Positions 15,841 to 49,557 of a stretch of 64,000 nucleotides of DNA are shown piece by piece (the first letter of the stretch is position 1; each line of letters starts with the position of its first letter). A program made the position numbers and the translations under genes. The notes under the pieces were generated by a model. The model saw nothing but the letters and a program-made list of their open reading frames with translations. It was not told the DNA's origin and made no database searches. Origin of the DNA: Arcobacter arenosus (GTDB lineage: Bacteria; Campylobacterota; Campylobacteria; Campylobacterales; Arcobacteraceae); assembly GCF_005771535.1 (NCBI RefSeq), contig NZ_VANU01000003.1:277809-341808 (forward strand), read 5' to 3'.

Positions 15841-16011
15841 TTTGCCTGCTTATATTTAATCTAACTTTAAGAATTGGTATGTGATAATTTCATTATAAGT
15901 ATATAGGGATCAATTGATTCCAAAGAGACTTTTTCTCTATGCTTGGTAACACAAGAATGTTTTAGGCTGTGAAACTATTCACTATGTGTCATAATATTGA
16001 AAGGATTTATT
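15841..16011 (+). promoter_or_regulatory. Promoter and long leader of the second flagellin gene
   Basis: An extended -10, TGTGATAAT, lies at 15880-15888 and would give a leader of roughly 115 bases. The leader can form small hairpins: a bulged stem at about 15908-15922 (GGATCAA/TTGATTCC), AGAGA/TCTCT near 15925-15940 and GTGAA/TTCAC at 15969-15982. The ribosome site GAAAGGA is at 15999-16005. A weaker TGTCATAAT at 15987-15995 is too close to the start to be the main promoter. The first flagellin gene has no such leader. Confidence 0.4.
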
Positions 16012-18090: not shown

Positions 18091-18116
18091 AAAGTAGTGA
18101 CTTAAGTCACTACTTT
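18091..18116. terminator. Bidirectional terminator between flagellin and maf
   Basis: A perfect 26-base palindrome whose left half is AAAGTAGTGACTT. It ends in TTT on both strands and overlaps the last codon and stop of the convergent maf gene (stop at 18110-18112). Confidence 0.65.
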
Positions 18117-20068
18117 AAATTAATATCTTTAACTCTATTTTCTACTTCTTCAAAAAATTCTAATAATTTTAATAAAGAACTATTTACAAAATTCATTGCT
18201 TTATTTTTATCTGATGTAGCAAGTGCATGGGTATATAAAGCTGTATAAAAGTGATACATAGTCCCTTTTAATAAAGACCTTGTTAAATAACTTTTGTTTT
18301 CATAATTAGGATTATTTGCTATTTCATATGTAGTTGAGATTAAATCAAAAAGTTCTTTAAATGTTTCAATCTCTTTTTGTGTAACTATCTCTTTAATTTC
18401 TTTAATATTAGAAATCAACATTTCTTTTTCTGATTTATATATTGAATCTATTTCTTTATGAAGTTTTTCAAAATCAAAATCAAAATTGTTTTCTATTCCT
18501 TTTAAAATATCAACTTTGTTAATTTTGTTATCTAGCTTTATACTTTCCGCTTTAAATGGTGTTGTTCCATCAATATATAAACCATCACTACAATTAAAAT
18601 AATTAATTTTAATTTTTCTTTTAACTTTATAATCAAGAATACAATTCTCAGCTCTTTGTTTACACCAATTAAATATATTAGTTGTCATAAACTTTTCTTC
18701 TTTATCAAAATTACCAGGAAATTTTTCTTTTAATAAATCTAATGTATTTACTTTATGCTCTTTAGTATTATAATAGATTGTATCTTTTGAATGATGACTT
18801 TCAGGATCTTTAAATCCCATATCTGTACCAAACATAAATATATTTTGAAATCCTATATCAGATAAAAAAGATAATGCCCCATTAACAATAGTTGGATTAC
18901 AATGATTTAACTTAGGTATATCTTCTGGGACAATAGAAGACCCTGCATCATTATCTCTAAAATAAATTTTTGCACTTTTAAACATACTATATACTTTAGG
19001 ATCAATAACATTTAAACCAATCATATCAATGTTTTTCAAGTACTCTTTAGTTCCATAATTTTCAATGATAGAAGCCATAAAAGTTGGTCTTTCAATTTCC
19101 ATATGAAAATCAGGAGAAATACCATTTTTATATAAAACTCTTAATGCAGTACCACAAGATATTAATACAACATTATCTTTATGCTTTTTAATATATTCTA
19201 TATCTTTATCAATTGATGGACCTGAGGCAACTATGAAAGCTGTAGAATTTTTAGGTAATTTATTACTATATCTATAAACAGGTAAATCATCATTTAGATT
19301 TTTAATAGTATGTTCTAAACTTATTATTTCATCATCATAAAAACCTTGACCAGTGAAAGCTATATCAATTTTTTCTATAAATTTTTCTTTAAATTCATCA
19401 AAAAACTTAGATTTATAATGGGTATAAAAAGGGATTAAATAAAACTGATAAGAAAAGTTTTTATAAATAGTATTAAGTACAATTCTTGATATTTCTTGAC
19501 TATTACTACCAATACAAAAATGAAGACCATGATTTTTTTGTTTAAAATACATAAAAATAGGTCTCCAATCTAAAAGATGAAAACTAACTTTTAACATTTC
19601 ATAACTTTCATCTACAATAATAATTTCTTTAATACCATTTGATTGTTGAATTAACTTTTGAATATGAGCCCCTGAACCAATCCCCATCATCAATAAAAAA
19701 GGAAAATATCCTTCTAAGTTTTGATGATAGTTCTCGAAGCCTTTATTTTCTTTTAAATACTCCGATTTTAGTTCAATGCCTTTAATTAATTTATCATGGT
19801 AATAATCTTTGTCACTATCTTTATTCCAAGTAGGTTTTTTAAAAAACATTGGAGGATTATCTAAAAAAGCATTTACTTGAGCTTGTATAGCTAAATCAAC
19901 TTTCCCAGGATAAATATTTTTACCCTTTATAGCTATATTATATTCACCTAATTGAGTAATATTTAGTTCATAATCTTTTATATCTGCTTTAATAATACTA
20001 TTATAAACCTCTGGCCAACCTTCTTTTAAAAAAGTCATATTATTTTGATAGTTTTTTTCTAAATCCAT
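18110..20068 (-). CDS. maf: Motility accessory factor Maf (DUF115), flagellin nonulosonate transferase
   Basis: Cytoplasmic protein of 652 residues that in Campylobacter, Helicobacter, Aeromonas and Magnetospirillum is required to put pseudaminic or legionaminic acid on flagellin before export. The DUF115/MAF core is clear: STAFIVASGPSIDKD at about residue 275-290, VLISCGTALRVLYKNGISPDFHMEIERP-like text after it, and MFGTDMGFKDPESHHSKD. The N-terminal GIGSGAHIQKL segment (about 130) looks like a nucleotide-binding loop. GAAGGA precedes the ATG. It lies convergent to the flagellin genes and is the last gene of the sugar locus, with pseI directly upstream. Confidence 0.92.
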   Translation of the reverse strand: MDLEKNYQNNMTFLKEGWPEVYNSIIKADIKDYELNITQLGEYNIAIKGKNIYPGKVDLAIQAQVNAFLDNPPMFFKKPTWNKDSDKDYYHDKLIKGIELKSEYLKENKGFENYHQNLEGYFPFLLMMGIGSGAHIQKLIQQSNGIKEIIIVDESYEMLKVSFHLLDWRPIFMYFKQKNHGLHFCIGSNSQEISRIVLNTIYKNFSYQFYLIPFYTHYKSKFFDEFKEKFIEKIDIAFTGQGFYDDEIISLEHTIKNLNDDLPVYRYSNKLPKNSTAFIVASGPSIDKDIEYIKKHKDNVVLISCGTALRVLYKNGISPDFHMEIERPTFMASIIENYGTKEYLKNIDMIGLNVIDPKVYSMFKSAKIYFRDNDAGSSIVPEDIPKLNHCNPTIVNGALSFLSDIGFQNIFMFGTDMGFKDPESHHSKDTIYYNTKEHKVNTLDLLKEKFPGNFDKEEKFMTTNIFNWCKQRAENCILDYKVKRKIKINYFNCSDGLYIDGTTPFKAESIKLDNKINKVDILKGIENNFDFDFEKLHKEIDSIYKSEKEMLISNIKEIKEIVTQKEIETFKELFDLISTTYEIANNPNYENKSYLTRSLLKGTMYHFYTALYTHALATSDKNKAMNFVNSSLLKLLEFFEEVENRVKDINLK

Positions 20069-20121: not shown

Positions 20122-21237
20122 TTAATCTTTCCCTTCAAGAATAGTCCAATTAACTTGTGTACCTTTTTTTAAATCTTTATTTACCTTTTTCCCTAAAAAA
20201 TCATTCAAATATTTAGGATGCATCCCATAGCCAGGTCTTACACTTCTAATATTTTCAGAAGTAAGCATTTCACCTTTTTTTATATCTTTAGATATATAAA
20301 GACTTCGAGCAAATTGTCTTGATTTTTTCTTTTTAGAGGTCATACTGTAGTCTACTTTTCCAAGAAGTTTTTCAGTATCCCTAACTACTTTTATCATCTG
20401 TGCAAACTCTTCTTTATCTAAAGAAAATTCAGCATCAGGCCCTCCTATAGATTTATCCAAAATAAAATGTTTTTCTATAACTTTTGCTCCTAATGTTGTA
20501 GCAACAATAGGGGCAGTAGTTCCTAAGGTATGGTCGGAGAAACCTGATATAACATTAAATGTTTGGGCAAGATTTGGTATTATAACTAAGTTTGCATCTT
20601 CAAAGGGTGCTGGATATGCACTTGTACATTTTAAAAGTACAATATCATTATTCCCTGCACTTCTACAAATATCTACGGCATCTTGAATCTCATCAATAGT
20701 AGCTATACCTGTACTAATTATTATAGGTTTGCCTTTCGAAGCTACATACTTGATAAGTTCATGATCTGATATTTCAAATGATGCTATTTTGTATGCACTA
20801 GGATTAAATTGCTCTAAAAAATCCACTGCCGTTTTATCAAAAGGAGTTGAAAATATATCAATATCTAAACTTCTTGCATAATCAAATAATTGCTTATGCC
20901 ATTCCCATGGTGTTGAAGCCCATTCATATAATTCATATAAACTTTTTCCATCCCAAAGAGTTCCACCTTTTACTATAAAGTCATCTTCTTTACACTTTAA
21001 TGTCATAGTATCCGCTGTATATGTTTGAAGCTTAATAGCATTTGCCCCTATTTCTTTTGCTGCTTTTATAGTGTCCAATGCGTTTTGAATACATCCATTA
21101 TGATTAGCACTTAATTCTGCAATTATATATATTCCATCTTTGTTTAGATCAAAATCACCTATTTTACACACAAAGGGTTCCTTAAAATTATTATTTCTAA
21201 AATTATTCAGTTTTTTATCTGAACTTAAGGGTTTCAT
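20122..21237 (-). CDS. pseI: Pseudaminic acid synthase PseI
   Basis: Condenses 2,4-diacetamido-2,4,6-trideoxy-L-altrose with phosphoenolpyruvate to give pseudaminic acid. The NeuB barrel shows YIIAELSANHNG, and PseI rather than NeuB or LegI identity is shown by FIVKGGTLWDGKSLYELYEW, the TPWEWHK segment and the STPFDKTAVDFL block. The C-terminal SAF domain has IKKGEMLTSENIRSVRPGYG. I chose the ATG at 21237 (371 residues); a TTG seven codons earlier is possible and neither has a strong ribosome site. It lies about 24 kb from pseG, pseF, pseC and pseB and seems to have its own promoter in the 92 bases upstream. Confidence 0.93.
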   Translation of the reverse strand: MKPLSSDKKLNNFRNNNFKEPFVCKIGDFDLNKDGIYIIAELSANHNGCIQNALDTIKAAKEIGANAIKLQTYTADTMTLKCKEDDFIVKGGTLWDGKSLYELYEWASTPWEWHKQLFDYARSLDIDIFSTPFDKTAVDFLEQFNPSAYKIASFEISDHELIKYVASKGKPIIISTGIATIDEIQDAVDICRSAGNNDIVLLKCTSAYPAPFEDANLVIIPNLAQTFNVISGFSDHTLGTTAPIVATTLGAKVIEKHFILDKSIGGPDAEFSLDKEEFAQMIKVVRDTEKLLGKVDYSMTSKKKKSRQFARSLYISKDIKKGEMLTSENIRSVRPGYGMHPKYLNDFLGKKVNKDLKKGTQVNWTILEGKD

Positions 21238-21298
21238 TATACTTTTTTTCAAATTCAATTGGACTTATAAAGACTAAATAATAATACTTTGTATTAAG

Positions 21299-27372: not shown

Positions 27373-28083
27373 CTATTTTCCAAATCTATTTTTCCAAGAT
27401 TCAAATAAACTTATTGCTTTATTTTGCTCATCTTCATTCATAGGAGGGTTTGAAGTAACATTTTCAATCAAACCTATTTTAGGGATAATCATATTATCTT
27501 TTAAATACTTATCACAAATAAAAGTTAACTCTTCATTTTCAATTAAATTACATTTATATTTAATATCTTCAATTCTATCATTTAAATTTATTTCAACTAA
27601 TTTCTCTTTTATAATTGCTCCTGCATCAATTCTTTTATCAATAAAATGTGTAGTTATATATAAAGGGATTCTTTTTTGTATACTCCAATATAAAGAATCT
27701 AAACCACTAGATTCTGGAATTTTTCCAGGATGAAGATTTATTATACCATGACTAAAACTATTAATGATATTCTCTTTTAAAATTCTTGCACCTGAAATAA
27801 TTCCTAAATTTGCATTGAGTTTTTCTATTAAAGTTAATGATTCATTACTGTTATGAGTAACAACAAAATATGGAATATCATATAAATCACATAACTCTTT
27901 TGGGTGAAAGATTGGTGGATTAGAAATACTTCTTTTATAAATCTTGTTAGGTAAATGTAACTTTACACTTGGTGCAGCCAAATATCCTACAACTTCAATA
28001 CCATACTTTTTTAATATATGTAAAAAATCTTCACTTTTTTTGTGGGGGAAGTCATAGCCAAAAACAACCACTTTATACATCAT
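27373..28083 (-). CDS. Sugar N-formyltransferase-like protein (Formyl_trans_N), third of the locus
   Basis: A protein of 236 residues with the N10-formyltetrahydrofolate-dependent formyltransferase fold. The catalytic triad is complete: N116, H118 (GIINLHPGKIPESSG) and D153 (RIDAGAII). It lacks the C-terminal OB domain of methionyl-tRNA formyltransferase, so a small substrate is likely. It overlaps the WlbA-like oxidase gene by 11 bases. That neighbour and the WlbC/WbpE-like enzyme make a 3-amino sugar acid, which would be a plausible acceptor, as no WlbB/WbpD acetyltransferase is in the window. The acceptor is inferred. Confidence 0.8.
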   Translation of the reverse strand: MMYKVVVFGYDFPHKKSEDFLHILKKYGIEVVGYLAAPSVKLHLPNKIYKRSISNPPIFHPKELCDLYDIPYFVVTHNSNESLTLIEKLNANLGIISGARILKENIINSFSHGIINLHPGKIPESSGLDSLYWSIQKRIPLYITTHFIDKRIDAGAIIKEKLVEINLNDRIEDIKYKCNLIENEELTFICDKYLKDNMIIPKIGLIENVTSNPPMNEDEQNKAISLFESWKNRFGK

Positions 28084-29039: not shown

Positions 29040-29768
29040 TCATCCATTTTTTTTTACTTTTAATACATAATGTACACTTTTGTCTAAAGCATTTCTATAA
29101 TCATGCTGTATAACGTCAAAACCATTTTCTTCAAAACTTTTATAAAGATATTCTTTATCATAAAAAAATCGATAAATATAATCATCATTTTCAAACTGAT
29201 ACATTTTTTTTATCAATGGAGGAATACAATCGTAAAATACTACAAGAGTTTTATCATGACATCTACTAATTAAATTTTTAAGTAATAAAGACAAATCTTC
29301 ACAGAACATAATACAACTTCTTAATAAAATCACATCAAACTCTTCTTCGAAAAGCTTATTTCTTTTATCATTTAAATCAAATACAATTGCAGGTATCTTT
29401 AATCTATTTCTAGCGTATTTTACAACTGTTTCATTAATTTCTGTTAAATATGCTCGTGCACCAAATTTTTCAAATTTCTTTACAAAATGACCATTCCCAC
29501 CACTTATATCTAAAATCTTCTTATCTTGAAAATTAAATCCATCTACTTCAAAAATATCTTCCATCTCTAACATAAAGTTTTGGAAAACATAAGATTGTTT
29601 TTTAATATGTCCAAAGTTAATAAAATAATCATAAAATTCTTGAGTATAACTTACATCTTTTTTAGGAAGACTAAAGGCATTTGTACAATATTTACAAACA
29701 TACCATTTATGTTTAGCCGTATCATATTCTTCAAATTCAGTTTCTTCCTTACATATTTGACATCTCAT
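29040..29768 (-). CDS. Class I SAM-dependent methyltransferase with N-terminal zinc ribbon
   Basis: A protein of 242 residues. The N-terminus has CxxC pairs (MRCQICKEE and YVCKYCTNAF), a probable zinc ribbon often found on sugar methyltransferases. SAM motif I is ILDISGGNGHFVKKF, followed by YLTEINE (motif II) and FDVILLRSCIMFCEDL (motif IV). It overlaps the amidotransferase gene by 4 bases. It probably methylates a sugar or its amidino group; the substrate is unknown. A run of nine A at 29047-29055 lies just before the stop and runs into the upstream ATG of the next gene. Confidence 0.82.
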   Translation of the reverse strand: MRCQICKEETEFEEYDTAKHKWYVCKYCTNAFSLPKKDVSYTQEFYDYFINFGHIKKQSYVFQNFMLEMEDIFEVDGFNFQDKKILDISGGNGHFVKKFEKFGARAYLTEINETVVKYARNRLKIPAIVFDLNDKRNKLFEEEFDVILLRSCIMFCEDLSLLLKNLISRCHDKTLVVFYDCIPPLIKKMYQFENDDYIYRFFYDKEYLYKSFEENGFDVIQHDYRNALDKSVHYVLKVKKNG

Positions 29769-30784
29769 GAATCATACTCCTTTTTAATATATTCATTAAA
29801 CCATTTTTCATCTAATCTTAATTTTTTTAAAACATATTTCTTATCATTAATTAATTCAACTTCATCATATATTGGTTTTTCTAAAATTTGCAAAGCTTCA
29901 TTTCTTGTAATTTGTTTTGCTTTTATCATAGAAGATAAATGTGCTCTTCTTTTATCAATATTATATTTTGTTGGCAAAATATAGTTTTGATAAAATTTTG
30001 TAAAAATTGATTCAGAGTGTTTTCCCCCATACTCTTTCCAATCACAAAACTTATTTAATATTTTTTTTGCATCTTCTTTATTATAATCTATATGATTCAA
30101 AGGAGAAATAAACTCAATATCAATAAGTTTTTTATTGATGTAAGGATATGTTTTAAAATCATTAATTCCATAATTAAATGCTGTCTTTTGAATTAAACTA
30201 AAATCCATTTTATCATGAACCCAATCTCTTGGAAGAATTGACTCACTTTGATAATTTTGTCCACTAACTGAGTATTTAATCTTGAATTTTTCACATACTA
30301 TTTGTTGTATTGCATTCATTGCATGATCCGTAACCATTTCTAAATCAATATTATCTGAATAAAAAAATGCCCTTTGTAACTCCCTAAACTCTTCCCAATC
30401 AATTATGTAAGTGTATAAATCAAGATTCAGTTTTTTTACAAGAAGCTCAATATTATGAATAGCTGCCTCACTATTCCATCCATTATCACAATGAACTACC
30501 AAAGGTCTTAAGTTTAGCTTCACTACACAATAATAAAGTAAAAAAGAGCTATCAACACCTCCACTAAGTCCTAATATAACATCATAATTACTATTTTTCT
30601 GATTTAATTTTATATCTTCAACTTTAGAGATTAAATCTGCAAATGATTTTTGTTTAATTCCTCTTTGTTCATACCAGTGACAATGTGAACAAATACCATT
30701 TTCATCAAATTCAATAGATGGATCACTTGTATCCATAACACATTTAGAACAAACTTGATACTCTCTAAACATAGTTATGTCCAT
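29765..30784 (-). CDS. pseA: N-acetyl sugar amidotransferase, PseA/WbpG-like
   Basis: ATP-dependent enzyme that converts an N-acetyl group of a sugar to an acetamidino group with ammonia from a HisH/HisF pair (PseA in Campylobacter, WbpG in Pseudomonas). Two CxxC pairs near the N-terminus (CSKCVMDTSDP and CSHCHWYEQRG) and the PP-loop VILGLSGGVDSSFLLYY are characteristic. KYSVSGQNYQSESILP and CDWKEYGGKHSES also match the family. The start is ATG at 30784 or the ATG four codons on. hisF and hisH partners are directly upstream. Whether it acts on a nonulosonate or on a uronate is open. Confidence 0.88.
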   Translation of the reverse strand: MDITMFREYQVCSKCVMDTSDPSIEFDENGICSHCHWYEQRGIKQKSFADLISKVEDIKLNQKNSNYDVILGLSGGVDSSFLLYYCVVKLNLRPLVVHCDNGWNSEAAIHNIELLVKKLNLDLYTYIIDWEEFRELQRAFFYSDNIDLEMVTDHAMNAIQQIVCEKFKIKYSVSGQNYQSESILPRDWVHDKMDFSLIQKTAFNYGINDFKTYPYINKKLIDIEFISPLNHIDYNKEDAKKILNKFCDWKEYGGKHSESIFTKFYQNYILPTKYNIDKRRAHLSSMIKAKQITRNEALQILEKPIYDEVELINDKKYVLKKLRLDEKWFNEYIKKEYDS

Positions 30785-31541
30785 TGTTTATTTTTTTGAT
30801 TATATATTCTCTATCTTCCAAACTCAAATATTGTAATAAAACACTCTTTAATTTAGTTAAGTATAAAAAATAAGAACCTATAGCAAATGCTTTAATATTT
30901 GTATTGTTAATTACTTCAACAATATCATCTAAGCTTCCCATTCCTCCTAGAGCAATTAATTCACAATTTAGCTCTTTAAATTTTGATAAAAGTTCAGTAT
31001 CGTAACCCATCATCATTCCATCATGATTTACTGAATTTATAACTATCTCACCAATACCTAAATTTATCAAAACTTTAATATGTTTTTGTAAATTTTCATT
31101 TTTTACTAAGTTATTTTTATAATCAAATAAAAAATATTCATTATTAACATTAACTATATCCAAACATACAGAAACACTTTGCGACCCAAATAAATTAATC
31201 AACTTTGATATAAAATCATAATCAAATGAATTTCTACCTATAATTAATTTTTCTATACCCAAATTTATCAGTTTAAATGCATCCTCAATATTTGAGATAT
31301 TCCCTCCATATGATATGGGTCTAGTAAATTCATCAACCATGTCTTTTAGTAGTTGGAAATTTATCATATTTTTATTAATTGCGCTTTTATCTAAAATAAT
31401 AAGTTCATCTACATTTTTTTGATTAAATATTTTAATACTATTAATTGGGTCCCCAATGTATCTATCAAACTTAAATTGTTTTGTTTTAATTACTTTATTT
31501 TCACTCAATAAAATCACAGGAGAAATTCGTAAAGGAATCAT
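30765..31541 (-). CDS. HisF-like subunit for sugar amidination
   Basis: Barrel protein of 258 residues, homologous to imidazole glycerol phosphate synthase HisF. The KFDRYIGDPINSIKIFNQK segment is typical of the glycan-locus HisF2 group. The first catalytic Asp of true HisF (IPCLD) is replaced here (SPVILLSENKV), while the second (VCLDIVN) is kept. This fits a role in binding HisH and channelling ammonia rather than histidine synthesis. It overlaps both hisH (4 bases) and the amidotransferase gene (20 bases), so all three are coupled. Confidence 0.87.
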   Translation of the reverse strand: MIPLRISPVILLSENKVIKTKQFKFDRYIGDPINSIKIFNQKNVDELIILDKSAINKNMINFQLLKDMVDEFTRPISYGGNISNIEDAFKLINLGIEKLIIGRNSFDYDFISKLINLFGSQSVSVCLDIVNVNNEYFLFDYKNNLVKNENLQKHIKVLINLGIGEIVINSVNHDGMMMGYDTELLSKFKELNCELIALGGMGSLDDIVEVINNTNIKAFAIGSYFLYLTKLKSVLLQYLSLEDREYIIKKINNGHNYV

Positions 31542-32107
31542 TTAAACTCCTCTACAAAATATTTTAAAAAATCTAAACCAAGGTCTCCACTAATTTCTGG
31601 ATGAAATTGACAAGCTAAAATATTCTCTTTTTTAATAATTGCTGGAATTTTCATATTATAAATAACATAATCTATCTCACAATTTTCTTCTTTAACCTCT
31701 AGGAAATATGAGTGAGAGAAGTAATATTTTTTTTCATTTACATAATTAAAACCAATATGTGGAACTTTATATATCTCATCTGAATTTATTTTTTTTACTT
31801 TAGCATTAATAAAACCTAAACCTTTAAGAGTACCTTCTTCACTACTAACACTAAAAAGTTGCATTCCTAAACAAATTCCTAAAATTGGTTTTTTATCTTC
31901 TAATACTATTTTTTTTAAATCTTGAACAATTGGTTTCAAAATCTTCATTGCAGAATCAAAACTACCAATTCCAGGTAAGATTAATTTATCACACTTTTCT
32001 AATTCATCATACTCTTTTACTATTTTAACTGATGCATTAATTGAATTTAAGGCATTAAATAAAGAATTTAAATTATTAGCTTTAGTATCTATAATTCCAA
32101 TAGTCAT
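31538..32107 (-). CDS. HisH-like glutamine amidotransferase subunit
   Basis: Class I glutaminase of 189 residues that releases ammonia from glutamine for the adjacent HisF/PseA-like pair. The catalytic Cys79 is in ILGICLGMQLF, and His and Glu are in CQFHPEISGD. The IIDTKANNLNSL N-terminus is HisH-like. It shares 4 bases with the cytidylyltransferase gene upstream. With the HisF variant and the amidotransferase it forms a three-gene set known from Campylobacter flagellin and Pseudomonas O-antigen loci. Confidence 0.9.
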   Translation of the reverse strand: MTIGIIDTKANNLNSLFNALNSINASVKIVKEYDELEKCDKLILPGIGSFDSAMKILKPIVQDLKKIVLEDKKPILGICLGMQLFSVSSEEGTLKGLGFINAKVKKINSDEIYKVPHIGFNYVNEKKYYFSHSYFLEVKEENCEIDYVIYNMKIPAIIKKENILACQFHPEISGDLGLDFLKYFVEEFK

Positions 32108-36731: not shown

Positions 36732-37547
36732 TTACTCAATATCTAATTTATCAAAATTAATAGACTCTAAATAACTATTTAAGCTATTAGACATTATATA
36801 ATTATTCATATTTAACTGTCTATTCTGTCTTTGTATTGTTTTTCTAGCAAACTCTTTAGAAATATTATTTTCTAAAGCAAATCCAAAAAATATTGCTAAT
36901 TTTGTAGATTTCTCTTTTTCTCTTTTTTCTTTGAAATATTCAAATTTATCTTTGCCAATATTTGAGCTTTTTTTCTCTATTTCTCTACAGACATTTTTGT
37001 CATCTTCATCTAAATAATAACCCTTATGTTTTAATCTTTGATCAAAAATTATAACATCACCTTTATTTGATTTTATATTTATAGGTTTTTTAAATAGTTT
37101 TTCATCAAACTCTTTATGAGAGCCAGGCACTACACTTAAACCATACTCATTTAAGTCATGATTTTGAAGGTAGATTCCAACCTTATAAATTTTTGCCAAA
37201 TTAAATATTTTTTCATCTTCAAAACCATCAATATAATCCGAAGACAAATCTCTATGCCAATTATTAAACATATTATATGATAAATCATTATGATAGATAT
37301 ACTTTATATCTCCAATTATACCTTTTAAATACTCTACAAGCTTTTTATTCAATACTACTCTAAGTTCAGGAACATACTCAAAAAAATTTGTAATTACTTT
37401 TCCACAATTATGATAAAAGAACTTATTTCTTTCATCTGAAAAATATTCTATTGCTATATTATTAAAAGTATCAATCTCTTCACTACTAAAAAAATTTTCT
37501 AGAATTATATAACCATGTTCAGATAAATCTTTTTTATAATTTTTCAT
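36732..37547 (-). CDS. PhyH-like Fe(II)/2-oxoglutarate dioxygenase
   Basis: A protein of 271 residues with the phytanoyl-CoA dioxygenase outline. The iron ligands are probably H98 and D100 (NWHRDLSS) and H174 (QRLKHKGYYL), with a 2-oxoglutarate Arg about 14 residues on. LSVVPGSHKEFD is the typical PhyH substrate loop. There is no signal peptide. It starts after a 4-base overlap with the 437-residue gene. Such enzymes hydroxylate small molecules; a sugar, sugar nucleotide or lipid carrier would fit this locus. The substrate cannot be read from the sequence. Confidence 0.78.
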   Translation of the reverse strand: MKNYKKDLSEHGYIILENFFSSEEIDTFNNIAIEYFSDERNKFFYHNCGKVITNFFEYVPELRVVLNKKLVEYLKGIIGDIKYIYHNDLSYNMFNNWHRDLSSDYIDGFEDEKIFNLAKIYKVGIYLQNHDLNEYGLSVVPGSHKEFDEKLFKKPINIKSNKGDVIIFDQRLKHKGYYLDEDDKNVCREIEKKSSNIGKDKFEYFKEKREKEKSTKLAIFFGFALENNISKEFARKTIQRQNRQLNMNNYIMSNSLNSYLESINFDKLDIE

Positions 37548-38857
37548 CTAAATTCCTTAAATATATAATTGATGTTTTTTTCTAAACTTTCTTTATAATT
37601 TACAAATGATAATTTTTTGGTACCTATATTTTTTTTATTTATTAGCAAAGTATAATTCTCTTTATTATTAACTATTTTTAAATAATCCAATTTTTTAAAA
37701 TAATCATAATACATTGTTGAATAATTTTCAATATTAATAAGTATCGTTGGTTTTCCAAACACTAAAGATTCATAAGCACAAGTAGAATAAACAGTTGTAT
37801 GAATATCACTATTTAACAAAATTTCATAGCAATTAAATTCAGGCATTGTATAAAAATTTCTTGTATACTCTATTTTCTCTTTATTCGTTCTAGGGATTAA
37901 AATAAATAAGATTCTTGTATTTATTTTAGCTACATCTTTAATAAACTCAATTAATTTTAATTCAACAGTATCTTGACTTGATATGGATACTATTTTTGAA
38001 AAAGTTTTTTTTAAAGTTCTAAAAGCTTCTATTTTTTCTATTTTTTTATTTAAAAAATCTAAATGATAATTCCCTTGAATAAAAATATTTTTATTTTCAT
38101 ACATACTTTTATTAGATAAATACTCTTTATCTAATTGGCTAAATACTAAAAAATAATTTGGCTGAAAAAGAGATTCAATTTCAAAGTTTGTATCATAAGC
38201 AAAATGACCAATAACCGATCCATGTTGCACTTCAATGATAGGGATATTTAACTCTCTTGCAGCTAAGATAATATTTAACTTTCCTATATAACCATCTATA
38301 AATATAGTTTTAGGTTGTAATTCGTTTAATATCTTTTTTATTGAGAAATAATACTTGAAAAAATTTTGCAATTTATTTTTATAATCAAATTTTATACCTA
38401 ATATTTTAAAAATTTTCAGGAGCAGTTCTTCATTCTCTATTTTAAAATCAAACAATTCACTATCAATTTTACTTTTTAGTAGAGTATTATAATCAAAAAC
38501 ATTTTTTGAATATAAAGTAAATTCTTGTAAATCTTCTAAAAAAATAGATGAATTTTGTCCCAAATAATCTGCAATAGGATCAAGAATAGGATCAAGATAT
38601 TTATTATTATATAGCCTTCTATTTATAGAAGATGTAAACATAAGATTTTTATTTTTATTATTTTCTAAATTTAATATTTCAAATTTTTTTTCAACTACAA
38701 GCTTTTCATCTTTGTACTCTATATTTTTTCTAATTTCAGAAGTCTTTACAATATTAAATAAGATATTTCTAACTATCATCCAAATAGAAATATTATTTAC
38801 TCTAATTGAATTTATAGGATATTTTTTTTCTATTTCTATAATTTCTTGATAAGTCAT
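37544..38857 (-). CDS. Unassigned protein, possible GT-B glycosyltransferase
   Basis: I do not recognise a named family. The 437 residues are soluble, very rich in Lys, Asn and Ile, with no signal or membrane segment. The C-terminal half has features seen in capsule and polysialic acid GT-B enzymes: IPIIEVQHGSVIGHFAYD with a QHG motif near residue 210, PNYFLVFSQLDKEYL, and VYSTCAYESLVFGKPTILIN near 360. The N-terminus is poorly conserved in look. It lies between the carbamoyltransferase and the PhyH gene, with 3- and 4-base junctions. Glycosyltransferase is the best guess. Confidence 0.6.
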   Translation of the reverse strand: MTYQEIIEIEKKYPINSIRVNNISIWMIVRNILFNIVKTSEIRKNIEYKDEKLVVEKKFEILNLENNKNKNLMFTSSINRRLYNNKYLDPILDPIADYLGQNSSIFLEDLQEFTLYSKNVFDYNTLLKSKIDSELFDFKIENEELLLKIFKILGIKFDYKNKLQNFFKYYFSIKKILNELQPKTIFIDGYIGKLNIILAARELNIPIIEVQHGSVIGHFAYDTNFEIESLFQPNYFLVFSQLDKEYLSNKSMYENKNIFIQGNYHLDFLNKKIEKIEAFRTLKKTFSKIVSISSQDTVELKLIEFIKDVAKINTRILFILIPRTNKEKIEYTRNFYTMPEFNCYEILLNSDIHTTVYSTCAYESLVFGKPTILINIENYSTMYYDYFKKLDYLKIVNNKENYTLLINKKNIGTKKLSFVNYKESLEKNINYIFKEFR

Positions 38858-38860
38858 TAA

Positions 38861-40696
38861 CTAATTTTCACTCTTTAACTTACGAACTTCAATACCTTCA
38901 ATCATTAAAAAATTTAAACCTGTATCTAAAAAATCATCTATTGCATCTTGAGGAGATTCAATAATTGTTCTTCCATGTTTATTAAATGAAGTATTTAACA
39001 AAACACCATAACCTGTTAAATTTTTAAATTCACTCAATATTTTATAGTAGTTTGGGTTACTTTCATGAGTTACAAATTGAACACGAGCAGTATTATCTAT
39101 GTGAACTGCACAAGGAATTTTATCTATAAATTCCTCTTTCATTATAAATGCACATGTCATATCTTTATTTATATAAGAATTTTCAAATAATCTTTCCCTT
39201 TCATCTATCATTATACTAGGACAAAAAGGTTGATAAAAAGGCCTATTTTTAACTTCTACATTTAATTTATTAATACTATTTTTGTTTAAAGGATTACCTA
39301 AAATTGATCTATTTCCTAGTGCTCTAGGACCCCATTCCATTTTTCCATGAAAAATAGCACCTACTTCATCATTATGTATATATTCAGCAGTTTTTTTCAT
39401 CCAATCTTTACCCAAGTCTTTATAAAAAATATTAGCAGTATTTTTTAAAACTGATATTATTTCCTCTTTTGAATAACTTGTTCCTAAATATTGAGTATTA
39501 TATTTACGAATCCATGAAATATTTTCTTCTAATTTAGTCTCTTCTAACAATTTTAAACAAATAGAACCCAAACCTAATCCATCATCAGACATTGCTGGAA
39601 TTATATATATATTATTTGTAACTTCTTCAAATATTCTCATGTTTACAATTACATTTGCAAATACTCCTCCCGATAAAACAATATTTTTGATTTTATATTT
39701 TTTTACAATAGAAGATATATAATTCACAATCGATATTTCCAAAAATTTTTGAACAGCTGCTGCAATATCTACTTTCGAAAATTTTATTAAATAATCATCA
39801 AAAGCTAGCTTATTAAAATATTTATATAACAATTTTTGATCAATATCTAGAGTTAAATTGCTCCTATCAAAAAGCAAACATTCCTTTAGTTTATAAAAAA
39901 TTTCATTATCAAAATTCCCATATGCAGCTAATGCTTCAACTTTTCCCTCTTCACTAAATCTATGAAAACCTAATTTTAATGTAAAATACTCATAAATATT
40001 TCCAAGAGAATTTCCGCAATCAATATCATCAAGATAAAAGTTTTTTCTTTTAGAACCAACTTTATATTCAAATTTATCCTTAGAGCATAAAAATACTTTA
40101 CTGAAATACCCATCCCCTGCACCATCAAATGTTATTGCAATTGCATGTTCATAGGGAGATAAAACAAAACTACCAAGAGCATGAGATTTATGATGATCAA
40201 AATACTCAATTTCATTTAATGATAAATCAAAAATCTTATTAATATATTTTGAAACTTCTTCAGAAATAGTTACTGCATTTTTTTGTTGTGATTTTTTTAT
40301 CTCAAATAGTTTTTTACCCGCATAACTTTGATTATAAATCAACTCTTGCTCATCAAGAGATAATAATTTAAAAGAATTATGTTTTCGTACTAATTCACCT
40401 TTGTATTTTAAATTATAAAACTCTCTTAAAGCTGTTTCATACTCATACCAATTAGAAAAATTTAACTTTTTAGCATAATCTTTTTCTGCTAAACAAAAAA
40501 CTATATTTTTAATTAAAGATTTTTCAAGTTTCGTATATTCAAATATATTTTCCAAAATTTTAATTGGATAAATAGTGTCATGTTTATATCTAGTTACTCT
40601 TTCAGTAGAAATAGCAAATATATAATTTTTCTCTGGACAAATTACCACAACATTTGTATCATGTCCAAAAAATTTCATCCCAATATATAACTTCAC
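38861..40696 (-). CDS. Carbamoyltransferase of the NodU/CmcH family
   Basis: A protein of 611 residues that transfers carbamoyl from carbamoyl phosphate, through an adenylate, to a hydroxyl of a sugar or other small molecule. The N-terminal Kae1-like domain has HDTNVVVICPEK, EYFDHHKSHALGSFVLSP (the metal-binding His pair) and AITFDGAGDGYFS. LSGGVFANVIVNMRIFE precedes the C-terminal domain, where GAIFHGKMEWGPRALGNRSILG and LLNTSFNKHGRTIIESP are family hallmarks. It is the only carbamoyltransferase here and suggests an O-carbamoyl group on one of the flagellin sugars. Confidence 0.9.
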   Translation of the reverse strand: MKLYIGMKFFGHDTNVVVICPEKNYIFAISTERVTRYKHDTIYPIKILENIFEYTKLEKSLIKNIVFCLAEKDYAKKLNFSNWYEYETALREFYNLKYKGELVRKHNSFKLLSLDEQELIYNQSYAGKKLFEIKKSQQKNAVTISEEVSKYINKIFDLSLNEIEYFDHHKSHALGSFVLSPYEHAIAITFDGAGDGYFSKVFLCSKDKFEYKVGSKRKNFYLDDIDCGNSLGNIYEYFTLKLGFHRFSEEGKVEALAAYGNFDNEIFYKLKECLLFDRSNLTLDIDQKLLYKYFNKLAFDDYLIKFSKVDIAAAVQKFLEISIVNYISSIVKKYKIKNIVLSGGVFANVIVNMRIFEEVTNNIYIIPAMSDDGLGLGSICLKLLEETKLEENISWIRKYNTQYLGTSYSKEEIISVLKNTANIFYKDLGKDWMKKTAEYIHNDEVGAIFHGKMEWGPRALGNRSILGNPLNKNSINKLNVEVKNRPFYQPFCPSIMIDERERLFENSYINKDMTCAFIMKEEFIDKIPCAVHIDNTARVQFVTHESNPNYYKILSEFKNLTGYGVLLNTSFNKHGRTIIESPQDAIDDFLDTGLNFLMIEGIEVRKLKSEN

Positions 40697-40698
40697 TT

Positions 40699-41667
40699 TT
40701 ATACCTTAATATCTATTTTGATTTTTTTAGCGATATCATTATTACTAATAGCAGTTGTAATCTGAGATTTGATAAAGGATTTATCCTCTTCTTTTAATCG
40801 TAAAAATCTATGGCACTTATTACAAGTTTCGTATGTCATATCAATAAATTCTTTTCTGATTTTATTAATTTGAGGTGAATTAAAAACTTTATATAAACCA
40901 TCAGTTACATTAGATAAGTTAAACTCTGAAGAAAAATCTTGACAACATAATGACATTTTTCCATCATAAGATATAACCGGAGTATAAAAAGGAAAATGAC
41001 ACCACTTTTTCTCATTAGATATATACTCAAAATTAAAGTAATGTTCTTTTAGCCTCTCATCATAAGAAGGAATAAATTCTATGCCATTAAAATAAGAAGA
41101 AGGATATAAAGGACTAACCTCTAAATAATCAATTAACTCAGCCCAGTTTTCTAAAAATAAATTAAAGTCTGACTTAACTGAAAAAATATTGTTTATTCCA
41201 ATCTCCATTTTAGAATTGCTATTATTTTTTGCATCTCTAAGTAGTTTCAAATTTCTTTTTATTTTTTCATATTTCAAAGGATATCTAAACAATTCAAAGC
41301 TTTTTTTATCCCATCCATCTATTGAAAATCTTACATAGTCTACCATCAAGAGAGTTTCGATATATTTATCAACATCAGAACCATTAGTTGATAAAGTTAT
41401 AATAAATCCATTATCTTTTCCATATTTTACTAGGCTATCAAGTTCAGGATGTAAAGTTGCTTCTCCTGTTTGATATAAACTGATATCTTTCACCCCTAGT
41501 TTTTTTGCATCATCTAAAATACTCTTAAAAAGAGAAAACTCCATAAAACTATTTTTTCTAGAACCATTCATCATCTCTCTAGCACAAAAATGGCATTTGG
41601 CACTACATGCAGTTGTAATATCAATAACTAAACTTTTTGGTATATACTCATCTTTTAAATATCTCAT
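40699..41667 (-). CDS. Radical SAM/SPASM protein
   Basis: The radical SAM cluster ligands are C21, C25 and C28 (TTACSAKCHFCAREMMNG). The barrel shows LYQTGEATLHPELDSLVKY and FSIDGWDKKSFELFRY. A SPASM-like tail contains WCHFPFYTPVISYDGKMSLCCQDF and TCNKCHRFLR. The 322 residues have no signal sequence. It shares one base with the glycosyltransferase gene upstream and lies 2 bases before the carbamoyltransferase gene. It is a different lineage from the radical SAM protein at 25.2 kb. The reaction is unknown; modification of a sugar is inferred only from context. Confidence 0.82.
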   Translation of the reverse strand: MRYLKDEYIPKSLVIDITTACSAKCHFCAREMMNGSRKNSFMEFSLFKSILDDAKKLGVKDISLYQTGEATLHPELDSLVKYGKDNGFIITLSTNGSDVDKYIETLLMVDYVRFSIDGWDKKSFELFRYPLKYEKIKRNLKLLRDAKNNSNSKMEIGINNIFSVKSDFNLFLENWAELIDYLEVSPLYPSSYFNGIEFIPSYDERLKEHYFNFEYISNEKKWCHFPFYTPVISYDGKMSLCCQDFSSEFNLSNVTDGLYKVFNSPQINKIRKEFIDMTYETCNKCHRFLRLKEEDKSFIKSQITTAISNNDIAKKIKIDIKV

Positions 41668-43757: not shown

Positions 43758-44402
43758 TCAAAAAACTTTTTCATCACTTGCCTTTTCTATTTTTAAAATA
43801 TATTTTTCTCCCCCTTTATAGAAAAATGCAGGATAATTTTCATTATCGACTATTCTAAAAAGATTAAATTGCTCATTTATAGACTTTTCTATATTTAATT
43901 CACTATCTTTTGCAGTTCTTTTTTTATAAAAACTCTCTTCACCAACTTGAGGTTTAGAAAATTTATATTTTTCATAATTTTTTATAAATTCTAAGCACAT
44001 TTGGATTGTTAATTCTGCTTGTTTAGCTCTAAGTTGTTTATTTAGTTCTGTGCCATCTAAAATTAAACGCTTCTTCATATAAATGTTTCCATTATCAATT
44101 CCATTTGAAGCTTCAAACATTGAAAAAACTATCTCATCTTGTCCTTCTAGTATTTGCCAAAAAAGAGGTGCCCAACCTTTACCTTTTGGTAAATCACTTT
44201 CATGAATAACAATATTGTGTAAATTCAACTTTAAATATTTTTCTTCGATTATTTTATGATATCCCAAAATAAATAGTATATCAAATGATTCATGCAAATT
44301 TTTATGTTCAAAAAATAATACAGAATCTCTAATCTTTAATTGTAAATCTTTTGCATAATCTACAAACCATTGATTAGGTGATGTTAAAATCGCAACTTTC
44401 AT
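43758..44402 (-). CDS. Formyltransferase-like protein, second of the locus
   Basis: A protein of 214 residues with the Formyl_trans_N fold. The catalytic His67 (IVIHESDLPKGKGWAPLFW) and Asp103 (GIDNGNIYMKK) are present. The Asn normally two residues before the His is V65. A short C-terminal domain ends FRIVDNENYPAFFYKGGEKY, the same kind of tail as in the formyltransferase at 45.1 kb. It starts at the end of the PIG-L deacetylase gene (1-base overlap). The pair suggests that an N-acetyl group is removed and the amine then formylated. Confidence 0.75.
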   Translation of the reverse strand: MKVAILTSPNQWFVDYAKDLQLKIRDSVLFFEHKNLHESFDILFILGYHKIIEEKYLKLNLHNIVIHESDLPKGKGWAPLFWQILEGQDEIVFSMFEASNGIDNGNIYMKKRLILDGTELNKQLRAKQAELTIQMCLEFIKNYEKYKFSKPQVGEESFYKKRTAKDSELNIEKSINEQFNLFRIVDNENYPAFFYKGGEKYILKIEKASDEKVF

Positions 44403-45088
44403 TATTTTATTACTCTTACACTTTTAAATGCCTCAACGTATCTTTTACCAATTCTCATACCTTGATATTTTGCATTTAATTCTATCCCTTCAAGACTTCT
44501 TGGGTGAGGATATTCACACAATTCAGATGTATACTCTTTCATAGCCTCTATTTTTAAATCGATAGTATCAGATATATCATAATATGTATCAGGAGAAAAA
44601 GATAAAGGGTAATTCCATTCAGTAGATGATAGTATCTCAAAACTATATATCTCTTTTACACATTCATTTTCCATTGGTCTTGTTGCTGTAATTACTGCTT
44701 TATAGGTTATTTGATGATCAATATTTAAATCATGTTCATAGTGGGTAAAAATAATATCTGGTTTCACTACCTCTTTTACTTTTGATATAACTTTAATAAT
44801 ATCAAGCAAATCGACACTATCAAATCTATTATCAGGAAAAGTTTCGACAAAAACTTTTTTTATTCCTATAACATCATTCGCTTTTTGTATCTCATTATTT
44901 AATATTTTTATTTCATCTTTTTTATTTTCAACTAATCTTTTTTCATCCCTTGATGTTTTTCCTTCACCAAGAATCAAAGTATAAGCTTCATATCCCTCTT
45001 TAATAAGTTTAGAAACTGTGCCAAAACACCCCAATACTTCATCATCAGGATGAGCTGCAACTATTAAAATTTTTTTACTCATTTTCAA
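44402..45088 (-). CDS. PIG-L family sugar N-deacetylase
   Basis: Zinc-dependent de-N-acetylase of 228 residues. The metal site is made by H13, D15 and D16 (VAAHPDDEVLGC) and by the later His in THYEHDLNIDHQ. LILGEGKTSRDE and the C-terminal CEYPHPRSLEGIE also match the family. The start is ATG at 45088 or two codons on; it overlaps the formyltransferase gene by 14 bases upstream. The substrate is presumably an N-acetylated sugar made in this locus. Its flanking formyltransferases on both sides point to an exchange of N-acetyl for N-formyl. Confidence 0.85.
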   Translation of the reverse strand: MKMSKKILIVAAHPDDEVLGCFGTVSKLIKEGYEAYTLILGEGKTSRDEKRLVENKKDEIKILNNEIQKANDVIGIKKVFVETFPDNRFDSVDLLDIIKVISKVKEVVKPDIIFTHYEHDLNIDHQITYKAVITATRPMENECVKEIYSFEILSSTEWNYPLSFSPDTYYDISDTIDLKIEAMKEYTSELCEYPHPRSLEGIELNAKYQGMRIGKRYVEAFKSVRVIK

Positions 45089-45770
45089 TTACCTCAAATC
45101 GACCTACTAATTTATTATTTTTTAAATGTACTTCACTAAATTCAATCTTTATTTTATCAAGATTAATATATGCTTTAGGATACCCCTGTGCATCAAGCAT
45201 TCGAATAAAATCATACATTTTATTTAAAGTTTTTTCGTTAAGGCCTAAAATATCACTTTCCTTTGCTTCTCTTCTTTTGAATTTTACCACCTGCCCAGTT
45301 TGTTTTTGAGGTAATAAATCATTTTCTAAAAAATCAGGAATCATCTTCTCAAATATAATATTTGAAATACGAATAAAGTTTTCTTCAGCACTTCCTACAC
45401 TAATATTAAAGTCATATTTTAAAAACACATCTCCCGTATCTAAACCACCATCAACTTTAAGTGCAGATATTTTAGTTTCATAAACCTCATTCATAATTAA
45501 GTTTTGAAAAGGACTACCTCCTCGACCATATGGTAAATCTGTCATATGAAACACTATACATGTAAAATTATTATAAATGTCATCTCTTATAATCCATGAC
45601 CAATGAGGGAAAAAAATATATTTAGGATTAATTTTAGATATAAGTTCGTATGTTAACTCTTCTTTATTGGTTATAAGATGAAATTTATATTTATTTTCAT
45701 TAAATTCTTTAATCTTGAAAAAGTTTTTTATATTCCATTCTTTTATAGTTGCAATAATTATATTTTCCAT
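45075..45770 (-). CDS. Formyltransferase-like protein, first of the locus, next to pseG
   Basis: A protein of 231 residues with the formyltransferase fold. H75 (FHMTDLPYGRGGSPFQN) and D111/D114 (GGLDTGDVFLKYD) are present, but the usual Asn two residues before His is V73. The C-terminus YDFIRMLDAQGYPKAYI continues into a short beta domain. The FHMTDLP-GRGGSP type is, from memory, common in pseudaminic acid clusters where it is usually annotated as methionyl-tRNA formyltransferase. It lies 3 bases from pseG and takes the place where PseH would be expected, so it may formylate the 4-amino group of the altrose precursor. Confidence 0.78.
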   Translation of the reverse strand: MENIIIATIKEWNIKNFFKIKEFNENKYKFHLITNKEELTYELISKINPKYIFFPHWSWIIRDDIYNNFTCIVFHMTDLPYGRGGSPFQNLIMNEVYETKISALKVDGGLDTGDVFLKYDFNISVGSAEENFIRISNIIFEKMIPDFLENDLLPQKQTGQVVKFKRREAKESDILGLNEKTLNKMYDFIRMLDAQGYPKAYINLDKIKIEFSEVHLKNNKLVGRFEVIENE

Positions 45771-45773
45771 AAT

Positions 45774-46712
45774 TTACCTATCAGCTTTTGTTAATAGCTT
45801 AATTAATTTTTTTTGTAACTTTACAGTGTCAAAGGAATTCAAAACATCAAAATTTTTCTTTTTTAAATATGAATATATCTCTTTTTGATTACTTGCTGTT
45901 TTTATTGCTATAAATGGAACTTTCATAAAATAAATTTCATTTATAGTCACACTTGGGGTAATTATAGCAAGATTACTTTTTGCCATTAGTTCTGCAATTT
46001 TATTTGAGTTTACATGTAATTTAATCCATTTTTCATATTTACAGTATTTTACTAAACTTTTTAAATTTTTATTTGCAGTTGTTGTGACTAAATTTATTCT
46101 TATTTTTTCTTTATAAAGTTTATTAACTTTTTTTATAGTTTTTAGTATATCTACATTTATATTGCTATGATCCGCTCCACCCATTGCAATAAAAACTAAA
46201 AAAGTATTTCTACTTAAACTTCCTCTTTTTCTTTTTGATTTTTTCTTTTCAATTAAAAATTCTTCTCTTAAAAGAGTAAATTTACTTCCACATCTTAATT
46301 CACAGTTAGATGGTACTAAATTTTTATATTTTTTTTTACTTGCACCCATATTGTGATTTAACAATATATCACAATGGTGTTTTTCATAAGTATCATCAAG
46401 TACCATAATTTTTAATTCTGGATTTTTAACTTTTAATTGTTTTTCATAAGTGTAGTCAATACCATAATGATCTATTATAATCATATCAATAGATAGTTTT
46501 TTTATGAGTATTTCTACTTCTTCTATATCATTAGATTTTAGGATAACTTTGTTATATCCAGTTTCATCAATTTTATGATTCACTGACCCCTCTAGTTCTT
46601 GAGTGGCAAAAGTAATTTTTGATTTGGGATACTGTTTTGCAAGAACAAGATCTCGCATAATATGCCCAATACCTATTTTAGATGAAGAGTCTGTTCTAAA
46701 AAGGATATTCAT
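45774..46712 (-). CDS. pseG: UDP-sugar hydrolase PseG
   Basis: GT-B-fold hydrolase that removes UDP from UDP-2,4-diacetamido-2,4,6-trideoxy-beta-L-altrose to give the free sugar used by PseI. The N-terminal loop FRTDSSSKIGIGHIMRD holds the catalytic His (GHIMR), and IIIDHYGIDYTYEKQ and VLDDTYEKHHCDILLNHN are family blocks. The C-terminal half has FIAMGGADHSNI and ITPSVTINEIYFMKVPFIAIKT. No acetyltransferase domain is fused to it, unlike some PseG-PseH fusions. It lies 1 base from pseF. Confidence 0.93.
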   Translation of the reverse strand: MNILFRTDSSSKIGIGHIMRDLVLAKQYPKSKITFATQELEGSVNHKIDETGYNKVILKSNDIEEVEILIKKLSIDMIIIDHYGIDYTYEKQLKVKNPELKIMVLDDTYEKHHCDILLNHNMGASKKKYKNLVPSNCELRCGSKFTLLREEFLIEKKKSKRKRGSLSRNTFLVFIAMGGADHSNINVDILKTIKKVNKLYKEKIRINLVTTTANKNLKSLVKYCKYEKWIKLHVNSNKIAELMAKSNLAIITPSVTINEIYFMKVPFIAIKTASNQKEIYSYLKKKNFDVLNSFDTVKLQKKLIKLLTKADR

Positions 46713-46713
46713 A

Positions 46714-47415
46714 TTAAAATTCTCTATTTTGTTTTAATGCAGAATACATATATTCAGCTCTAGTCCAATCTTCTAATGTATCTATGTCTTGCACTAAATG
46801 TCTTGGTAAAATAATAGGTATGCTATCTTTTCCAAACATTACTTCACCTGAATTTTTACCTACTTTAGTCCAATAAAATTGTCCTGCATCTTGGTAAGCT
46901 TCTTCTAAATCTTGGCTTCTTTTCATATAATTTTCAGGCCAAAACATTTTACATCTATTATTCTCATCTATTTTAAAAGTTCTTTGAATCGGAAAAGGCA
47001 TGGAAGTGCATGAAAAAGTATTTATTGCATCATTGTTTTTTAACTTAGTATAACCTTCCACTAAATATTTTTCTTGAAGTAATGGTGCCGTTGCATAAAT
47101 TGTGCAACAATAATCATATACTTCTCCCTTTAGTTCAAGAAAGTCTATTGCATGCTTTGTTACATCAGCTGTACCTGTAAAATCATCACTTAATTCTTTA
47201 GGTCTTAAAAAAGGTACTTCTGCACCATATTTTTTAGAAATTTCTGCAATCTCTTCATCATCTGTACTTACCACAACTTTTTCAAACAATTTAGACCTTA
47301 ATGCTGTTTGAATACTATATGCAATTAAAGGTTTACCATGGAAGTCTTTAATATTTTTTTTAGGAATTCTTTTACTACCACCACGAGCAGGAATAATAGC
47401 AATAGACTTAGGCAT
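46714..47415 (-). CDS. pseF: Pseudaminic acid cytidylyltransferase PseF
   Basis: Activates pseudaminic acid to CMP-pseudaminic acid, the donor for Maf. The CTP site is IIPARGGSKRIPKKNIKDF at residue 6, with GKPLIAYSIQTAL, VVVSTDDEEIA and VPFLRPKELSDDFTGT. The EAYQDAGQFYWTK and LPRHLVQDIDTLEDW segments separate PseF from NeuA. It has 233 residues, normal for the family. The start overlaps the pseC stop by 8 bases, and pseG follows directly. Confidence 0.94.
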   Translation of the reverse strand: MPKSIAIIPARGGSKRIPKKNIKDFHGKPLIAYSIQTALRSKLFEKVVVSTDDEEIAEISKKYGAEVPFLRPKELSDDFTGTADVTKHAIDFLELKGEVYDYCCTIYATAPLLQEKYLVEGYTKLKNNDAINTFSCTSMPFPIQRTFKIDENNRCKMFWPENYMKRSQDLEEAYQDAGQFYWTKVGKNSGEVMFGKDSIPIILPRHLVQDIDTLEDWTRAEYMYSALKQNREF

Positions 47416-48538
47416 TACATATCTCCAAGATTGAGTTTATTACATATATTTGTTCATCTTTTGATAAAAGAGGGTAAATAGGTAAACTTATAGCCTTTTC
47501 ATAATATTCATCCATTATAAGAGTATTTTCATTCCCATATCCTAAATTTTGATAGTATGGTTGTTTATTTATGGGAATATAGTGATATTGAAGACCAATA
47601 TTTTTCTCTCTCATTTTTAAAACAAACTCTTTTTTATCAAAGTTTAATTTATCAAAATCAATTTTTACTACATATAAATGGTAAGCTGAATCATTAGTAA
47701 AAGAGTATAATGGCTCAATAAAATCTATACTATCAATTAATTCATCATATCTTTTGGCAATTGTTCTTCGTGAAATTAAAAATGAATCTAATCTTTTTAA
47801 TTGAGATATTCCTAATGCACATGAGATATCAGTTAATCTATAATTAAATCCTAACTCTGTCATATCATAATGCCAAGGTGCAACTTCACTATTTGATTTC
47901 ATTCCATGATTTCTTAAAAGCATAAGTTTTTCATAAAGCTCTTTTGAATTGGTAGTTATTGCTCCACCCTCTCCTGTAGTTAAACTTTTAACAGGATGAA
48001 AAGAGAAAATAGAGATATCACTATTTGTGCATGAGCCAGCTTTTATACCATCTTGCATAGCTCCAATAGCATGGGCATTATCTTCTAAAATCTTGATTTT
48101 ATATTTTTCTTTTATCTCTTTTAATTTTTTTTGATTTAGCATATTTCCTGAAAAAGATACACCAAATATAGCTTTTATTGAAGAATCTTTTTTTAAATAC
48201 TCTTCACAAAGATCTAAATTGATATTTCCATCTTCGTAAATATCCACAAAAACTGGTTTTGCATTTACATAAAGCATTGAATTAGAAGTTGCTAAAAATG
48301 AGTTTGGTGTTGTTAAAACTTTGTCACCATCATTTAAAAGTACCATTGAAGCTAAATGCAAAGCAGCAGTGCCATTTGATACAGCCACACAATATTTTGC
48401 ATCACAATATTTTGCAATTGAGTCTTCAAACTCTTTTACTTTTGGCCCTGTTGTTAGATAATCAGATTTTAAAACTTCAACAATACTATTTATATCTTTT
48501 TCATCAATAGTTTGCTTACCATAAGGGATGAAATTCAT
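47408..48538 (-). CDS. pseC: UDP-4-amino-4,6-dideoxy-L-AltNAc aminotransferase PseC
   Basis: PLP-dependent transaminase that aminates C4 of the keto sugar made by PseB. The N-terminus FIPYGKQTIDEKDINSIVEVL and YLTTGPKVKEFE are typical of PseC. The PLP Lys is in FSFHPVKSLTTGEGGA (near residue 183), with EDNAHAIGA and VSNGTAALHLA completing the cofactor site. LQYHYIPINKQPYY near the end matches PseC. It begins directly at the end of pseB with no gap and is coupled to pseF. Confidence 0.95.
   Translation of the reverse strand: MNFIPYGKQTIDEKDINSIVEVLKSDYLTTGPKVKEFEDSIAKYCDAKYCVAVSNGTAALHLASMVLLNDGDKVLTTPNSFLATSNSMLYVNAKPVFVDIYEDGNINLDLCEEYLKKDSSIKAIFGVSFSGNMLNQKKLKEIKEKYKIKILEDNAHAIGAMQDGIKAGSCTNSDISIFSFHPVKSLTTGEGGAITTNSKELYEKLMLLRNHGMKSNSEVAPWHYDMTELGFNYRLTDISCALGISQLKRLDSFLISRRTIAKRYDELIDSIDFIEPLYSFTNDSAYHLYVVKIDFDKLNFDKKEFVLKMREKNIGLQYHYIPINKQPYYQNLGYGNENTLIMDEYYEKAISLPIYPLLSKDEQIYVINSILEICNA

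Positions 48539-49557
<1,019 letters not shown>

Follow-up and report, generated by a model that had tools for sequence, protein, structure and literature searches.

What is a PIG-L de-N-acetylase gene doing between two formyltransferase-like genes, one upstream (FT2) and one downstream (FT1), and on which sugar does this trio act? We addressed the question in a stretch of 64,000 nucleotides from Arcobacter arenosus (GCF_005771535.1, contig NZ_VANU01000003.1, forward-strand positions 277,809 to 341,808), hereafter the window. Its relevant features are as follows.

13819-15798 and 15997-18003, plus strand: two flagellin genes, Flagellin_N and Flagellin_C over cut-off in both
18110..20068, minus strand: Maf flagellin glycosyltransferase (PF20157, 115.6 bits)
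20122..21258, minus strand: PseI, pseudaminic acid (Pse) synthase, some 22 kb away from the trio, next to Maf (TIGR03586, 515 bits, cut-off 340.25)
43758..44402, minus strand: FT1, formyltransferase family, 214 aa (Formyl_trans_N, PF00551, 34.2 bits, cut-off 26.1)
44402..45082, minus strand: PIG-L/LmbE de-N-acetylase, preferred start ATG, with the TTG at 45088 as an open alternative (PF02585, 88.5 bits, Pfam cut-off 28.2)
45075..45770, minus strand: FT2, formyltransferase family, 231 aa (Formyl_trans_C_2, PF21553, 66.9 bits, cut-off 27)
45774..46712, minus strand: PseG, UDP-sugar hydrolase (TIGR03590, 243 bits, cut-off 153.55)
46714..47415, minus strand: PseF, CMP-Pse synthetase (TIGR03584, 341 bits, cut-off 205.7)
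47408..48538, minus strand: PseC, 4-aminotransferase (TIGR03588, 436.5 bits, cut-off 423.5)
48539..49531, minus strand: PseB, 4,6-dehydratase/5-epimerase (TIGR03589, 574 bits, cut-off 407.75)

A profile search of the window placed PseB, PseC, PseF, PseG and PseI all above their curated NCBIfam cut-offs. The transcription order is pseB, pseC, pseF, pseG, FT2, PIG-L, FT1, all on the minus strand, and the three reading frames of the trio lie where the first-pass annotation of this DNA had put them. Since PseI, Maf and two flagellin genes, the likely glycan acceptors, stand in the same window, the locus is a flagellin glycosylation island and the trio lies within its Pse operon. A flagellar sugar had been suspected as the target and left unnamed; this context bears out the suspicion and supplies pseudaminic acid as the name. 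PseH was not found in the genome: the best match, at 37.5 bits, fell short of the cut-off of 93.1, and none passed 1e-15. PIG-L and FT1 meet at TAATG, an exact 1-base overlap as first described, but the 14-base overlap described for FT2 and PIG-L requires the TTG at 45088. We prefer the ATG at 45082 because it has GAGGT 8 bases upstream and aligned homologues begin at the same Met, and the overlap is probably 8 bases, as in locus L039. FT2, PIG-L and FT1 are translationally coupled.

The metal ligands of PIG-L are complete, as had been claimed: the AHPDDE motif (H13, D15, D16) and the downstream residues H116, D124, H125 and H195 do not vary among 24 homologues. Its predicted structure (pLDDT 91) best matches BshB (Z 26.6, rmsd 2.3, 203 aligned). 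It resembles BshB, diacetylchitobiose deacetylase and MshB in fold, in the AHPDD metal motif and in a presumed GlcNAc-type substrate, but forms a separate subfamily that is tied to Pse clusters and has as its partner a gene for an acyl-adding enzyme. Apart from the acetyl that PseH adds, the Pse pathway carries a single acetyl group, which comes from GlcNAc at C2 and ends up at N5 (steps in PMC5109656). We propose that PIG-L strips this 2-N-acetyl group from a Pse precursor.

To place FT1 we compared the gene that occupies its position across clusters. Its predicted structure (pLDDT 87.4) best matches PDB 1zgh (Z 19.3, rmsd 3.1, 202 aligned), with HypX and WbkC, a sugar formyltransferase, next at a Z of about 17. 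At four loci (L010, L039, L044, L051) the gene 3' of PIG-L scores over the cut-off as a true PseH, and PIG-L and PseH form a single protein in the Helicobacter-like loci L050, L124, L125 and L127, the C-terminal domain in L050 being PseH. Conversely, FT1 sits in the PseH slot with FT2 and PIG-L absent in five loci (L082, L083, L131, L136, L137), of which L083, L131 and L136 have PseB-C-F-G-FT1-PseI clusters and L082 and L137 similar ones; PseH was not found in any of their source genomes (G027, G058, G410, G389, G311). Because the PseH slot is occupied and PseH is absent in those genomes, FT1 is the probable 4-N-acylating enzyme. FT1 is found without FT2 and PIG-L in many genomes, most tested genomes with FT2 and PIG-L carry PseH in its place, and PseG is fused to FT1 in L072 and to PseH-like proteins in L058 and L069. 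FT1 does not replace PseH everywhere, however, since it is fused to a PseH domain in L133 (6848-8203) and L134 (7215-8339), and 8 of the 15 FT1 genomes tested also carry PseH over cut-off. Several other Campylobacterota FT1 frames measure 366-465 aa and may represent this fusion as well. For this genome we propose that FT1 replaces PseH, formylating the 4-amine that becomes N7.

FT2, by comparison, behaves as one half of a pair. Among 397 genomes of the phylum, FT2 was found in 21 (all E < 1e-87) and the PIG-L subfamily in 26 (E < 1e-94, the next group standing well apart at 3e-67). The two co-occur and are adjacent in all 21 FT2 genomes, with gaps of +2 to -14 bases (Fisher p = 1.5e-30 over the 397 genomes, uncorrected for kinship among them). 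Scanning a single genome per species gave 40 FT2 loci in taxa including Campylobacterota, Clostridia, Planctomycetota, Gammaproteobacteria, cyanobacteria, Pelagibacteraceae and a Nanoarchaeota bin. Pse-pathway genes were present at 32 of these, and profile mapping placed PIG-L at 35; the five remaining loci (L043, L055, L056, L075, L078) lie on contigs that are short or break off nearby. FT2 without PIG-L was not seen in complete genomes, so FT2 would act on the nitrogen exposed by PIG-L. In plasmid searches FT2 with PIG-L beside it appeared on one Synechococcus plasmid only; PIG-L relatives were mostly on Sinorhizobium and Priestia plasmids. Pairwise distances of FT2 and PIG-L correlate (r = 0.59, Mantel p = 2e-4, 36 loci), and those of FT2 and PseG do so about equally (r 0.59), which points to joint inheritance with the cluster rather than to a special coupling.

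These distributions divide the acetyl-for-formyl exchange cassette that the first-pass annotation had read into the three genes. The 21/21 linkage and the Pse clusters support PIG-L and the upstream FT2 as such an exchange unit, but the downstream FT1 falls outside it, occupying the PseH slot and occurring without the pair. FT1 is also present in 6 of the 21 genomes with FT2 and PIG-L, so that the three-gene order is one of several combinations. The trio as a single functional unit was rejected, FT1 and the FT2/PIG-L pair segregating independently.

Together these data allow us to propose a route to Pse5Fm7Fm, a pseudaminic acid with formyl at both N5 and N7, in which FT1 performs 4-N-formylation while PIG-L and FT2 swap acetyl for formyl at N5; we give this reading a probability of roughly 60%. 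PseB and PseC would produce UDP-4-amino-4,6-dideoxy-L-AltNAc, of which FT1, in PseH's stead, would formylate the 4-amine (N7 of the finished nonulosonate). If FT1 acylates the 4-amine directly, the 2-N-acetyl would be the sole N-acetyl in the Pse intermediate and therefore the PIG-L target. PIG-L would then remove this acetyl from the GlcNAc-derived 2-amine (N5 of the nonulosonate), and FT2 would place a new acyl group, most likely formyl, on the freed amine. PseG, PseI and PseF would carry the product on to CMP-Pse5Fm7Fm, with a residue mass of about 288.1 instead of 316.1, and Maf would load Pse5Fm7Fm onto flagellin; relatives with PseH for FT1 would make Pse5Fm7Ac (302.1). We infer both substrates, the formyl group, the nitrogen served by each enzyme and the order of the steps from the gene order, families and linkage observed above. 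The PIG-L:PseH, PseG:PseH-like and PseG:FT1 fusions hint that the swap takes place on the UDP-sugar; the free sugar or CMP-Pse could be the PIG-L substrate instead.

The point at which formyl transfer is least assured is the active site. FT2 belongs to the family of PDB 1zgh over its full length (1.4e-82; by profile 1.8e-103), and the catalytic His and Asp are invariant in the FT1 and FT2 families, being H75 and D111 in the 26 FT2 homologues. The canonical Asn two residues before the catalytic His, present in ArnA, LgrA and the window's third formyltransferase, was absent from all 26 FT2 and all 11 FT1 homologues, FT2 proteins having V, C, I or A at that position and FT1 having V. Because this catalytic Asn is missing, formyl transfer by FT1 and FT2 is not assured. 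PIG-L and a second enzyme could thus perform a general N5 acyl exchange in which FT2, and perhaps FT1, transfers a group other than formyl or uses different chemistry. That the group added after deacetylation can vary is also suggested by five genomes of the phylum survey with the PIG-L subfamily and without FT2. In one of these (L114) a GNAT-like protein directly precedes PIG-L, and in the other four a gene of the WbqC family (PF08889) stands in FT2's place within Pse clusters, as follows.

L115: 9284-9991
L116: 8517-9224
L117: 7664-8383
L118: 7497-8219

The WbqC assignment rests on one member scanned (224.8 bits), the others being alike by eye. Against a non-formyl group stand the formyltransferase fold with its retained His and Asp and the label of PDB 1zgh, a formyltransferase of the same family, although that label was probably given on sequence only. 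We consider a group other than formyl unlikely, and formyl remains the acyl group that FT2 most likely adds.

A different assignment of the nitrogens was also weighed. FT1 and FT2 come from related families and share 1zgh as their best PDB match, so FT2 might make the N7 formyl while PIG-L and FT1 serve N5, or the two might alternate on one nitrogen; with FT1 in the PseH slot of clusters without PIG-L and FT2, and FT2 never without PIG-L in complete genomes, we regard such an exchange of roles as quite improbable. We give similarly little credence to another sugar as the substrate, for instance legionaminic acid (Leg), whose genes lie at about 29-37 kb in the same island. The window does hold a NeuB/Leg-type synthase, and in the Nanoarchaeota bin (L046) FT2-PIG-L adjoins a Leg-type synthase and PseC/PseF-like genes, a possible route to N5-formyl legionaminic acid in an archaeal bin; in the window and at most loci, though, the pair sits between or beside pseG and pseI. 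That FT1 and FT2 are ordinary Met-tRNA formyltransferases, as the labels of their relatives would have it (1zgh; a Campylobacter coli clade 2 gene, PMC12102941), or decayed copies of these, is almost certainly wrong. Their TIGR00460 scores of 49.3 bits (FT1) and 32.1 bits (FT2) fall far under the cut-off of 201.5, on which the Met-tRNA identity was rejected, and a separate fmt-like gene is present on contig C5; the frames are intact and conserved and the residues invariant, which speaks against decay. We know of no function for 1zgh, the Clostridium thermocellum 'methionyl-tRNA formyltransferase' of the FT2 family, and given the Pse context of this family its label is probably wrong.

The variable partners of PIG-L suggest a wider scheme. 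In addition to the WbqC and GNAT loci, genome G002 (L079:5195-7892) has FT2-PIG-L with neither PseH nor FT1, and its pseF and pseG are fused. Two ATP-grasp ligases follow the pair there, and one of them carries an L-amino acid ligase C-terminal domain. This genome counts against the Pse5Fm7Fm route as drawn above and fits a modular scheme. In the WbqC clusters PseI scores lower, and a methyltransferase follows pseG in L115, L117 and L118. We tentatively propose, at well under even odds, a modular device for Pse-type nonulosonic acids in which PIG-L is the fixed part that unmasks N5, FT2, WbqC or the GNAT re-acylates it, and PseH, FT1 or the ATP-grasp enzymes set N7; the WbqC protein would be a candidate N-acyltransferase. 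If true, this device is a gene code for reading the N5 and N7 substituents of flagellar glycans, makes di-N-formyl Pse a natural sugar and points to an N-acyltransferase function for WbqC. In L051, L126 and L128 two PseH-type genes flank FT2-PIG-L, and these two copies are left unexplained by the exchange model.

Single elements of the proposed route have precedents. PseJ of Anoxybacillus is a UDP-sugar formyltransferase that gives 7-formamido Pse. Like FT1, it is a formyltransferase of the Pse pathway in PseH's place, and so a precedent for the FT1 role. An FT1 profile finds PseJ (PDB 6ci2 and 6ci4, named there as PseJ of Anoxybacillus kamchatkensis) at 4e-8, more weakly than ArnA (3e-12) or 1zgh (3e-19); FT1 would be an analogue of PseJ, and orthology is not supported. 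Diversification of the N5 substituent of Pse or Leg is likewise known from Campylobacter, where enzymes of the PseA/PtmG type form an acetamidino group at N5. Unlike FT2 and PIG-L, these convert acetamido to acetamidino with no deacetylation or re-acylation. An N5-formyl nonulosonate has a precedent in Halorubrum sp. PV6, whose 5-N-formyl-legionaminic acid cluster contains a formyltransferase gene (PMC6137143); by its description that system differs in that it makes Leg rather than Pse, no deacetylase is mentioned and the formyltransferase gene is longer (953 bp product). Aeromonas flagellar islands have a deacetylase among the pse genes, for example between pseF and pseG or after pseH, and by description no formyltransferase is mentioned (PMC7874193). 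Some of the Geobacillus islands without PseH carry formyltransferases (PMC5109656). The Aeromonas and Geobacillus islands are earlier sightings of single parts. The C. coli clade 2 'methionyl-tRNA formyltransferase' was found with pseH and read as a translation gene (PMC12102941); it is probably FT2, consistent with L052. In the literature searched, with most subscription journals outside its scope, we found no description of the FT2/PIG-L pair and no match for N5-formyl, N7-formyl or di-formyl in a Pse context. The same search gave no match for flagellin together with 302 Da, and a Vibrio/Moritella cluster paper and a Clostridium Pse paper mention neither formyl nor a deacetylase.

The acyl groups of nonulosonic acids decide how flagella appear to hosts, phages and antibodies. 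To our knowledge, the installation of non-acetyl N5 substituents is largely unassigned. A conserved two-gene signature would let the N5 group be predicted from sequence, correct the 'methionyl-tRNA formyltransferase' misannotation of 1zgh and probably of the C. coli gene, and supply enzymes for unusual Pse derivatives.

Three further groups of genes in the window were noted. A third formyltransferase-family gene (27373-28083) with a canonical Asn-Leu-His lies near the legionaminic acid genes and resembles the LgrA F domain and PseJ. At 29765-32107, HisF-like and HisH-like genes accompany an NAD-synthase-like (PseA/PtmG-like) gene, which suggests that legionaminic acid receives an acetamidino group in this island. 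Downstream of the trio, at 36732-41667, a PhyH-type dioxygenase, a 437-aa protein of no assigned family, a carbamoyltransferase (NodU/CmcH type) and a radical SAM-SPASM gene stand in a row.
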